Part shown: positions 55,673 to 58,302 of the stretch, piece after piece
Layout of the letters: every line of letters starts with the position of its first letter
How positions within the stretch are numbered: position 1 is the first letter of the stretch
Source: Pseudanabaena sp. PCC 6802
GTDB taxonomy: Bacteria > Cyanobacteriota > Cyanobacteriia > Pseudanabaenales > Pseudanabaenaceae
Direction: 5' to 3'
Length of the DNA stretch: 64,000 nucleotides
Assembly (NCBI RefSeq): GCF_000332175.1
Contig: NZ_KB235914.1
Location: forward strand, 3,716,868-3,780,867
The notes under the pieces: model-generated
The model's database searches: none
Told to the model about the DNA's origin: nothing
Seen by the model: only the letters and a program-made list of their open reading frames with translations
Position numbers and translations under genes: made by a program

Positions 55673-56434
55673 TTATCGCCGACGGGCAACTCTGAGGATT
55701 TGACAGGCAAGCATTGCCGCACCAAAGCCATTATCAATATTAACGACCCCAATGCCTGTGGCGCAGGAATTGAGCATGGTAAGTAAAGGTGCAATACCGT
55801 TAAAACTGGCACCATAACCCACGCTGGTCGGTACGGCAATTACGGGACAATCCACCAAACCTGCTACGACGCTCGCCAAAGCGCCTTCCATTCCCGCTAC
55901 GACAATCAGGACATCGGCGGCGTGCAATATTTGTTTGTGTGTTAAAAGACGATGAATGCCAGCCACACCGACATCCCAGAGACGCTGCACTTGATAGCCG
56001 CACAGTTCGGCGGTAACCGCTGCTTCCTCGGCCACTGGAAGATCGGCTGTACCCGCTGTCACGATCGCGATCGCTCCCTTCTCGGCATCAATGTCTGGGG
56101 CTTTGCCTAGCGTGCAGATCTGCGCCAGGGGAAAGTAATTTAAATCGGGTAGTTCGGACTTTAGTTGTTCGTATACAGGCTGGGAGATGCGAGTTGTCAT
56201 GACGAGAGGAGTGCGCGATCGCATCGCCTGCACGATCGCCACAATTTGCTCCGGGGTTTTACCCAAGCCAAACACGACCTCTGGGAATCCAGTGCGCAGT
56301 TGGCGGTGATTGTCGATTTTGGCAATGTCGCCAACTGGTTCAAAATCGAAATATTTGAGTTGCTCTAGTGCCGCATCTGGGCTGAGGGTACCGTCAGCTA
56401 CAGTCTGCAAAAGTTGTCTCAATTCTTCTTTCAT
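55673..56434 (-). CDS. larB: LarB, nickel-pincer cofactor biosynthesis carboxylase
   Basis: 253 residues: an N-terminal helical region (LRQLLQTVADGTLSPDAALEQLKYFDFE), then the AIR-carboxylase-like core (AIVTAGTADLPVAEEAAVTAELCG, VADVLIVVAGMEGALASVVAGLV, PTSVGYGASFNGIAPLLTMLNSCATGIGVVNIDNGFGAA). LarB carboxylates and hydrolyses NaAD in making the nickel pincer cofactor of lactate racemase. No larC or larE is beside it. Confidence 0.93.
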   Translation of the reverse strand: MKEELRQLLQTVADGTLSPDAALEQLKYFDFEPVGDIAKIDNHRQLRTGFPEVVFGLGKTPEQIVAIVQAMRSRTPLVMTTRISQPVYEQLKSELPDLNYFPLAQICTLGKAPDIDAEKGAIAIVTAGTADLPVAEEAAVTAELCGYQVQRLWDVGVAGIHRLLTHKQILHAADVLIVVAGMEGALASVVAGLVDCPVIAVPTSVGYGASFNGIAPLLTMLNSCATGIGVVNIDNGFGAAMLACQILRVARRR

Positions 56435-56444
56435 TAACTAACTT

Positions 56445-56566
56445 ACCGCACAGTGCGGTTAAAAACCTACCACAGAGTTACTAGACCGCAATATACAGTC
56501 TAACATGCACAAATAAACATACTAGACGCAAAAAGTGGTAAAAGACGCTTTTTAAAGGTACTAGAC
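56445..56566. promoter_or_regulatory. Possible regulatory region: palindrome and three spaced TACTAGAC octamers
   Basis: ACCGCACAGTGCGGT (56445-56459) is a 15-bp palindrome with a single central base, 11 bp upstream of larB. Three copies of TACTAGAC start at 56479, 56520 and 56559, spaced 41 and 39 bp, close to four helical turns each. The region is AT-rich and gene-free, between larB and the foreign ORF. A regulator binding on one DNA face is an inference. Confidence 0.4.
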
Positions 56567-56645
56567 TACTAAATGCGGTAATATACGTCAATTCAGTGTG
56601 CTATACTACACTTGGCGCTTTAATATATAGTTCGACAGACCAACG

Positions 56646-57137
56646 ATGGGAGCTGCGACCAGATATCTGTGCCGAGGGCGACTCGAGGGCGGCGAGCGAA
56701 TCTTTCTGTGGGAGACGAATGATCGCGACCGCGTCGTGGTTGATGAGGCTGGCGATGTGGTCTCGTTCGCCACGGAGGCTGAGGCCCTTGAAGCGCGGGC
56801 TACCTCAGCGGGTATCTCGAGTGAACCGAGTGCATTTTACGACTTCGACGCGATACAGGCATGGTGTCACTCTCGGAACCAAGCGGTAGACTGCCCGGCC
56901 GTCTTGAACATATGGAACCTGCTCAATGACGTTCCGGGCGTGCAGGAACTTTTCTCGGCGGCCGAGTCTCGCGCCGCCGAGATCTACGGCAAACTCTTTC
57001 ACGGCTGCAATCTACCCGCGATGGGAGCAAGTCCCTGCGAGTACGTTCCCGAGTGGACAAGTGCCGAGATACTCGATCTGAAGCGACTAATCCTGCTGGG
57101 ACTCAATGACTTCCGCATGCGCTGCAAGTCGTGGTAA
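56646..57137 (+). CDS. Unknown protein of a probable integron gene cassette, 163 aa
   Basis: 163 residues, soluble, Cys- and Trp-containing (WETNDRDRVVVDEAGDVVSFATEAEALEARA; YDFDAIQAWCHSRN; ILDLKRLILLGLNDF). I recognise no family, although the opening looks like a small immunity- or DUF-type protein. The DNA is GC-rich, has no GCGATCGC site and differs in codon use from its neighbours, which marks transfer. A GTTCGAC sequence (56630-56636, one mismatch from GTTRRRY) lies just before the ORF, and an attC-like site directly follows the stop codon. A gene cassette is the best reading. Confidence 0.75.
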   Translation: MGAATRYLCRGRLEGGERIFLWETNDRDRVVVDEAGDVVSFATEAEALEARATSAGISSEPSAFYDFDAIQAWCHSRNQAVDCPAVLNIWNLLNDVPGVQELFSAAESRAAEIYGKLFHGCNLPAMGASPCEYVPEWTSAEILDLKRLILLGLNDFRMRCKSW

Positions 57138-57140
57138 GCT

Positions 57141-57224
57141 GTCGAACCAAGCGTTGCAGACGGACCTGGCCCTCGCTGGCGCTCGGAACCAGGTCGCTGA
57201 ACGCCAAGCCGTTAGCCGTTAGGT
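57141..57224 (+). other. attC-like recombination site 1 (59-base element type)
   Basis: Begins with GTCGAAC (R''-like, one base off RYYYAAC) and CCAAGCGTTGCAG (L''). A GACCTGG/CCAGGTC stem lies in the centre. CTGAACGCC (L', 57197-57205) follows, then GTTAGCC (57211-57217) and directly GTTAGGT (57218-57224), which fits GTTRRRY. GCGTTGCAG pairs with CTGAACGC except for one unpaired G, exactly the extrahelical base expected in L'' of attC sites. The ORF upstream ends three bases before it. Confidence 0.72.
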
Positions 57225-57444
57225 TTTGTAGCCTTCAAGCTGCTGAGAGCTGAGTATTGATGACTGGCATAAGATTTGCGCTCATATGGAGTAATAGGTG
57301 GAGCTATTTAACGGGCTTGCCTGGAATCTTTGCAGTTGCAAGATAAAAATTTTTCATGTATACGATTTTCACCTGCTTGCCGATATGAGCGAAGATTTGA
57401 TGGATACTATAAGTCTATAGATCCATACAATGATAAATTCATAG

Positions 57445-57559
57445 ATATAGCGTTTTTCAATTGAGAACAGGTTTTATTGACGGGGTGAAGGGGTGGAACC
57501 CCGTCATGGAGGCAACGCCCCCAAACCCCCTACTCTTTCCGATCTGAAAACCGCTATAT
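57445..57559. repeat. Palindromic repeat with ATATAGCG/CGCTATAT arms
   Basis: The left arm ATATAGCGTTTTTCA and right arm TGAAAACCGCTATAT are inverted. The core holds ACGGGGT...ACCCCGT and GGGG/CCCC stretches reminiscent of R1, but the arms differ. It sits in the gap (57225-57654) between attC-like site 1 and hicB; the rest of that gap shows no ORF. No second copy is in the window. Confidence 0.6.
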
Positions 57560-57654
57560 ATTTCGTTTTTATCCTAATGGAAGTATAAGTAAATTTGTGT
57601 TAGTATAAACGGCTGAATAAATACCTGTATCTACAAATCTCATACGGTTTAGTC

Positions 57655-57879
57655 ATGCATCTACAACTTACAAAGGTCTTTAAAAAAGTCCCAGAGGGCT
57701 ACATCGGTTTTGTCGAAGAGTTACCAGGAGCTAATGCACAAGCAAATACTCTGGAAGAGGTAAGAGTAGATTTAGAAGAAGCAATTGAATTAGTTCTTGA
57801 GGCAAATCGTCTACTCTCGGAAGAACAACTTCAAGGTCAAGATGTTGTTCGTGAGTCTATTACCCTGTCTGTTGCATGA
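57655..57879 (+). CDS. hicB: HicB-family antitoxin
   Basis: 74 residues: LTKVFKKVPEGYIGFVEELPGANAQANTLEEVRVDLEEAIELVLEANR is the partial RNase H-like fold of HicB antitoxins. It is short and has no C-terminal DNA-binding domain. Its stop overlaps the hicA start by four bases (ATGA), so they are translationally coupled. It would bind and block HicA. The gene lies in the region bounded by two attC-like sites. Confidence 0.92.
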   Translation: MHLQLTKVFKKVPEGYIGFVEELPGANAQANTLEEVRVDLEEAIELVLEANRLLSEEQLQGQDVVRESITLSVA

Positions 57880-58070
57880 AGCGTTTAGACTTAATCCGTC
57901 ACCTTGAAGCGCATGGATGTGAATTTTTGCGTGAAGGCAGCAAGCATACCATCTACGTCAATCGTGCTAAACAAGCCTCATCTTCTATTCCATGTCATCG
58001 TGAAATAAATAATATGCTTGCTCGCAAAATTTGTCGTGACTTACAAGTGCCTGATATATCTGGAACCTAA
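57876..58070 (+). CDS. hicA: HicA-family mRNA interferase toxin
   Basis: 64 residues with the dsRBD-like HicA fold: KRLDLIRHLEAHGCEFLREGSKHTIYVN (catalytic His in GSKH) and CHREINNMLARKICRDLQV. HicA toxins cleave mRNA. The order antitoxin-toxin is the less common one but known. The stop codon TAA lies inside the ACCTAAC box of the following attC-like site, which is typical of cassette genes. Confidence 0.93.
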   Translation: MKRLDLIRHLEAHGCEFLREGSKHTIYVNRAKQASSSIPCHREINNMLARKICRDLQVPDISGT

Positions 58071-58154
58071 CCAGGGCTTGCAGCGGATAGACTCAACACC
58101 CTAGCAATGACTCGAAAAACCTTGCAACCGCTGAAGCCCAAGCCGTTGTTATAC
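58065..58154 (+). other. attC-like recombination site 2
   Basis: ACCTAAC (58065-58071) fits the R'' consensus RYYYAAC exactly. GGGCTTGCAGCGG (L'', 58074-58086) pairs with CCGCTGAAGCCC (L', 58128-58139) except for one extra G in L'', the extrahelical base of attC sites. GTTGTTA (58145-58151) or GTTATAC (58148-58154) is the R' candidate, neither a perfect match to GTTRRRY. The total is about 90 bp, in the usual range. Confidence 0.72.
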
Positions 58155-58195
58155 GTAGCGATAGCGCCGATTGAGACCGTTGAGATGATCTGAGT

Positions 58196-58302
58196 GCGAT
58201 TGGCTACGCCACGCAAGCTAACGCAAATAAGCAAGCAAGACGAATGGACTACGTTTGCAAGTCCCGAAAATGGATCGGCGATTGGCTACGACACGCAAGC
58301 TA
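58196..58302. repeat. Direct repeat pair of 25 bp
   Basis: GCGATTGGCTACGCCACGC at 58196 recurs as GCGATTGGCTACGACACGC at 58278; the matches run 25 bp with one mismatch and start 82 bp apart. The unit is of the kind often scattered in cyanobacterial genomes. The gene-free stretch 58155-58372 contains only this and an AT palindrome near 58326. Confidence 0.65.

Follow-up and report, generated by a model that had tools for sequence, protein, structure and literature searches.

The genes larB and kaiC of the cyanobacterium Pseudanabaena sp. PCC 6802 are separated by a gap of about 1.9 kb, which contains a GC-rich open reading frame of 163 amino acids (ORF1), a hicB-hicA pair and two attC-like hairpins. 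This gap lies in the stretch of 64,000 nucleotides analysed here, called the window below. A preliminary description had taken these elements for a cluster of attC sites lacking an integron integrase (CALIN). Cassettes without an adjacent integrase are indeed present, but the cluster is larger than the two sites then described: an attI site, previously counted as ordinary flank, stands before it, and a truncated cassette follows the second site. The order is attI - cassette 1 (ORF1) - attC - cassette 2 (hicBA) - attC - truncated non-coding cassette, with no integrase gene (intI). Almost certainly, this array was built by an integron integrase (IntI) on a copy of an attI site. The features, from left to right, are:

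55673-56434, minus strand: larB, left flank of the gap
56444..56630, plus strand: orphan attI (type A), ending at the crossover G/TT (G at 56630), from homology to the attI beside intI-A
56445..56459, no strand: perfect palindrome ACCGCACAGTGCGGT, where the attI homology begins on the left, read from the sequence (ACCGCACTGTGCGGT in the intI-A copy)
56602..56607, plus strand: TATACT, resembling a -10 element, in the best-conserved section of attI, shared by the window and intI-A copies
56631..57211, plus strand: gene cassette 1 (TTCGAC ... CAAGCCG)
56646..57137, plus strand: ORF1, no known family in profile and homologue searches
57141..57217, plus strand: attC site 1, model R2, 27.5 bits, E 2.1e-4
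57212..57218, plus strand: 7 extra nucleotides, TTAGCCG, a scar between cassettes 1 and 2
57219..58145, plus strand: gene cassette 2 (TTAGGT ... CAAGCCG) with hicBA
57441..57562, no strand: dispersed repeat of about 120 bp within cassette 2, upstream of hicBA, from genome matches
57655..57879, plus strand: hicB-like antitoxin, 74 amino acids, Pfam PF21748 (UPF0150-like)
57876..58070, plus strand: hicA toxin, 64 amino acids, Pfam PF07927 (HicA_toxin), E 6e-9, above cut-off
58065..58154, plus strand: attC site 2 (model-called limits), model R2, 27.8 bits, E 1.7e-4
58146..58302, plus strand: third cassette, truncated, non-coding, attC lost, from similarity to other cassettes of the genome
58373-59914, minus strand: kaiC, right flank of the gap

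Both hairpins follow the register of known attC sites: a 7-base R'', three bases, a 5-base L'' arm, an unpaired G, CAG with the remainder of the arm, L', and GTT. Site 1 consists of R'' GTCGAAC, L'' GCGTT-G-CAG, L' CTG-AACGC and R' GTTAGCC, and site 2 of R'' ACCTAAC, L'' GGCTT-G-CAGCGG, L' CCGCTG-AAGCC, then GTT. The unpaired G of both L'' arms, which the preliminary description had pointed out, aligns with the column in which known attCs have their bulge. As had been claimed, the R'' box of site 2 does contain the hicA stop codon (58068-58070).

Two covariance models of attC were built, both without window sequences; their E-values are rough. R1, made from 22 attCs of integrase-bearing contigs, mainly of other phyla including Proteobacteria, matched site 1 weakly (17.3 bits, E 0.33) and missed site 2; being too distant to detect the latter, it was set aside for R2, made from 25 attCs mainly of cyanobacterial arrays, other loci of the same genome included. 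Over the whole 64 kb, R2 gave two matches only, which were sites 1 and 2. The genome searched comprises 5.62 Mb in 6 contigs (C1, C2 and C5 among them), and R2 found about 30 attC sites across it, single attCs dispersed over the genome being among the findings; site 2 is 90% identical to an attC at C5:3283359. Rfam had nothing relevant at the locus. A hand-made palindrome scan recovered both sites, but chance palindromes elsewhere in the window scored as high, and the scan was kept for seed collection only.

A second line of evidence is independent of the hairpins. A circular cassette is inserted by IntI at G|TT, and for this reason an integrated cassette begins with bases complementary to its own R''. 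The start of cassette 1 (GTTCGAC at 56630) is the exact reverse complement of its R'' GTCGAAC, and that of cassette 2 (GTTAGGT at 57218) of its R'' ACCTAAC. The same match was found in 16/16 cassettes listed from arrays of this genome, whereas partner shuffling left 2.1 on average; the 16 are a selected set in which both ends are readable, several single sites with a missing or interrupted R'' being excluded. The imperfect outer boxes reported earlier are real, but they have a simple cause, because the R' beside an attC in an array belongs to the following cassette, whereas the R'' of each cassette has its perfect partner in the 5' end of that cassette. Cassette 2 most likely ends at G 58145.

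Both structures are true attC sites. That they are terminators or repeats lying by chance beside ordinary genes is extremely improbable. The bottom strand, folded as DNA, gave a bulged stem in both, and although only site 2 folded better than its shuffles (z -2.46, versus 0.04 for site 1) and the crude palindrome scan had its equals in the window, the independent model matches, the matching cassette ends and the attI homology described next all speak against chance.

When the genome was searched with the 200 bases before cassette 1, copies were found beside intI-A, about 290 kb off, and at C5:4.3986 Mb. The window attI (187 bases) is about 75% identical to C5:3481887-3482064 over about 190 bp, and 46/50 of its last bases at the crossover are identical. 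Homology stops at G|TT, exactly abutting cassette 1, so that attI adjoins the first cassette as in a complete integron. On the other side it begins abruptly at the palindrome ACCGCACAGTGCGGT, about 10 bases from the larB start codon; the palindrome is possibly a regulator or integrase binding site. TATACT is a candidate cassette promoter (Pc), judging by its sequence and conservation, and ORF1 starts 15 bases past the crossover. Because cassette 1 is preceded by a homologue of integron A's attI, the locus is an orphan-attI array and neither a simple nor a chance CALIN. Cassettes can also be inserted off target, at attG sites. PMC12901181 names attG among IntI substrates, and the dispersed single attCs of this genome would fit such events; with an attI-A homologue exact to the crossover before cassette 1, however, it is very unlikely that the cassettes between larB and kaiC entered at a random attG site in the absence of any attI.

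The GC-rich composition of ORF1 noted earlier was confirmed (GC 58.9%, GC3, that is GC at third codon positions, 67%, versus 47.8% GC for the window). It had no Pfam or NCBIfam match and no significant PDB match, and no homologue was found in 386 cyanobacterial genomes, plasmids or viral contigs. In cassette 2, hicBA is preceded by its own leader of 430 bases; a HicA_toxin-domain protein adjoins a HicB-type antitoxin, the match of the latter to PF21748 being marginal (27.7 bits, cut-off 27.3). For the dispersed repeat upstream of the pair, 10 or more further stretches of the genome gave matches of 78-98%, some of them incomplete. The third cassette is 73-74% identical to non-coding cassettes in stretches L010 (two copies), L168, L189 and L191. 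This non-coding type, about 310 bp if complete, is repeated across arrays (L010 13243-13551 and 14208-14520, L168 from 7972, L191 and L189). Extra bases occur at the cassette joints, TTAGCCG (57212-57218) and TTG (58146-58148), and are perhaps remnants of deleted cassettes.

The window has no integrase, as first described, and no match to the integrase profile TIGR02249 (cut-off 265 bits) was found near the locus; the adjacent intI of a complete integron is thus lacking. In the genome as a whole, however, the search for intI that had been proposed revealed two intact genes, a pseudogene and a broken fragment:

C1:2190-3131: intI-B, intact, TIGR02249 473 bits
C5:3480843-3481784: intI-A, intact, TIGR02249 467 bits
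C5:0.990 Mb: intI pseudogene
C5:3.287 Mb: intI fragment, broken, adjoining a transposase like that of an insertion sequence (IS)

Read from the sequence, both intact proteins have the insert specific to integron integrases together with the tyrosine-recombinase residues R, HxxR, GH and Y. The integron B array apparently continues across a contig break, covering the C5 end and the C1 start, if the two contigs join as we infer. Copies of an ABC-transporter ATPase gene adjoin both intact intI genes, intact at intI-B (L008 3186 onward) and internally deleted at intI-A (L010 10340-10780).

With such degraded integrase genes in the genome, it could be that the attI copy of the window is the leftover of a local integron. 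A complete intI-attI-cassette unit, duplicated from integron A, would then have filled itself and lost its intI between larB and attI, leaving the array as a fossil. The abrupt start of the attI homology so close to larB, the truncated third cassette and the dispersed repeat fit such a history. On the other hand, no trace of intI was found at the locus, the attI core is well preserved, and some other orphan attIs of the genome resemble inserted units, which loss of intI does not explain. We regard decay as a serious possibility that falls short of an even chance.

Leaving the pseudogene locus aside, the genome has seven attI copies that no intact intI accompanies; they comprise two type A, four type B and one type C copy. 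Type C stands beside the intI pseudogene, and also without any intI at C5:2.881 Mb. The copies of attI-B beyond that of intI-B itself are:

C1:572760: attI-B copy
C2:26839: attI-B copy, on a 109-kb contig
C5:1449102: attI-B copy, stretch L190
C5:4398399: attI-B copy, stretch L017, in tandem, directly after the third attI-A copy

By stretch, attI-B was located at L008 1957-2111, L189 from 5760, L170 from 4839, L190 and L017. Three copies form a gene-less unit of about 155 bp whose left end is exactly G|TTATTTTGCATTTTG and whose right end is ATAG|TT. One of these three G|TT-bounded units sits in an attI-A crossover, and the C1 and C2 copies sit beside an attC half; having this upstream attC half in common, the latter two were counted as one event. 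Beside intI-B, the left edge of attI-B falls in the first codons of intI-B.

Such edges would be expected if an attI circle, excised by IntI, had been reinserted like a cassette. It is conceivable, and we propose it tentatively and with less confidence than decay, that attI is itself mobile in this clade. IntI would make one cut at the crossover of attI and another at a cryptic G|TT within the opening codons of intI, and the circle, whose junction would join ATATATAG/TTATTTTGC, would be inserted at attI or attC sites. The gene-less units so released would seed integrase-less platforms on chromosome and plasmid, served by one or two shared integrases. The window attI was considered as a G|TT-bounded unit of this kind and rejected, since its left edge is the palindrome, which is not preceded by G|TT.

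Other genomes were then compared. An integrase above the cut-off was present in 14/39 genomes searched, that of the window included. The attI of relative G028 had 1-12 matches in each of 12 genomes of its genus, the weakest of which are short and may be repeats; half of these genomes (6/12) had no integrase above the cut-off, just fragments or distant recombinases. Reading outwards from such attIs, attCs were present in 12/15 stretches, mostly after attI, and in seven stretches of relatives the heptamer at the attI crossover complements the first R'' exactly. The relatives' stretches end near attI, and the absence of intI there rests on genome-wide searches.

Given these observations, we somewhat favour the reading that the window array is served in trans by an IntI, most likely that of intI-A. 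The attI core has been kept (46/50) while drift in the rest has brought overall identity to about 75%, orphan attIs followed by cassettes occur repeatedly in this genome and in related ones, and ORF1 is without a homologue among the 386 cyanobacteria. Several points weigh against it. There is no sign, in the sequence, of present-day action of IntI-A at the locus; the truncated third cassette, the joint scars (TTAGCCG, TTG) and the repeat of cassette 2 suggest some age; and the leftover of a local integron could account for attI. In addition, larB and kaiC are not neighbours in the relatives examined but lie apart, so that an empty site was not seen; the flanks of larB and kaiC there contained no ORF1, hicBA or attI.

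According to service in trans, events may have been as follows. A copy of the attI of an intact integron, with its putative cassette promoter, would have been placed between larB and kaiC without an integrase gene. The integrase would have been supplied in trans, most probably from intI-A (C5:3.481 Mb), whose own attI has the same recombination core. Cassettes would have entered at G|TT via the folded bottom strand of each attC, presumably the truncated non-coding cassette and hicBA first and the imported ORF1 last. ORF1 would be read from the attI promoter, and hicBA, as a toxin-antitoxin pair, may select against loss of the array.

The arrays elsewhere in the genome have other cargo and interruptions. 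Group II intron sequences, which resemble the group II introns that target attC, interrupt attC sites in the R'' box at L189 6244-8075, L170 (to 8270), L191 (two copies) and L012. They encode a reverse transcriptase with a maturase domain, with Rfam group-II-D1D4 matches in L189, L170 and L191; L012 has the same group II intron end by sequence. A cassette of integron A of 3.7 kb (L010 14520-18303) carries a PatG-like subtilase (Peptidase_S8, PatG_C), a Nif11-type peptide and several small MKLPIQAQP-type peptides, and looks like a cluster for ribosomally synthesized and post-translationally modified peptides within a single cassette. Adjoining the intI pseudogene is a Type II restriction-modification cassette (L011 8043-9923) with a C5 methylase and an Eco29kI-like endonuclease.

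Integron parts had been presented as seldom reported in cyanobacteria. Cyanobacterial integrons are on record (PMC2426708), and cyanobacterial attCs have been used for a covariance model (PMC8352920), so that their mere presence is no surprise. CALINs, defined by the absence of intI, are about equal in number to complete integrons, and IntegronFinder makes no attI search outside class 1 (PMC9024848). Their origin is usually ascribed to decay. As attI outside class 1 is hardly described and not searched for, orphan-attI arrays would be counted as plain CALINs; we found nothing on orphan attI in the open literature, subscription papers lying outside that search. In this one genome, attI copies of three types, seven in all, lack an intact intI. 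With two intact recombinases and no fewer than six further integrase-less landing sites, it suggests that the clade spreads a single gene-capture system over many places. Service by IntI in trans, or movement of attI in cassette form, would break the textbook rule in this clade that an integrase has one attI, in cis, and would open many landing sites to cassette capture. Were attI indeed mobile, the integron would be a system distributed over the genome, and many CALINs would have arisen as such platforms and not by decay of an integron.

Compared with known systems, the locus resembles a sedentary chromosomal integron in its attI with a promoter-like element, its G|TT crossover and its attC-ended cassettes, mostly with one gene or operon each, and differs from it in having no intI, the nearest intact one being about 290 kb away. 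With two attC sites and no integrase nearby it falls under the definition of a CALIN (at least two attC without integrase), but unlike a CALIN it has its own attI copy. Toxin-antitoxin cassettes are known from chromosomal integrons, and the HicBA cassettes among them are likewise a pair carried as one cassette with its own leader; here the host is a cyanobacterium, and activity is predicted from sequence. The closest parallel to the attI-B units is found in mobile integrons, where attI occurs within unusual cassettes, the delta-attI type combining a resistance gene with part of an attI that serves as its recombination site (PMC12901181). In both cases attI lies away from intI within units moved, or apparently moved, by IntI, but the attI-B unit, about 155 bp long, carries no gene, and the window attI itself has no G|TT boundary on the left side.
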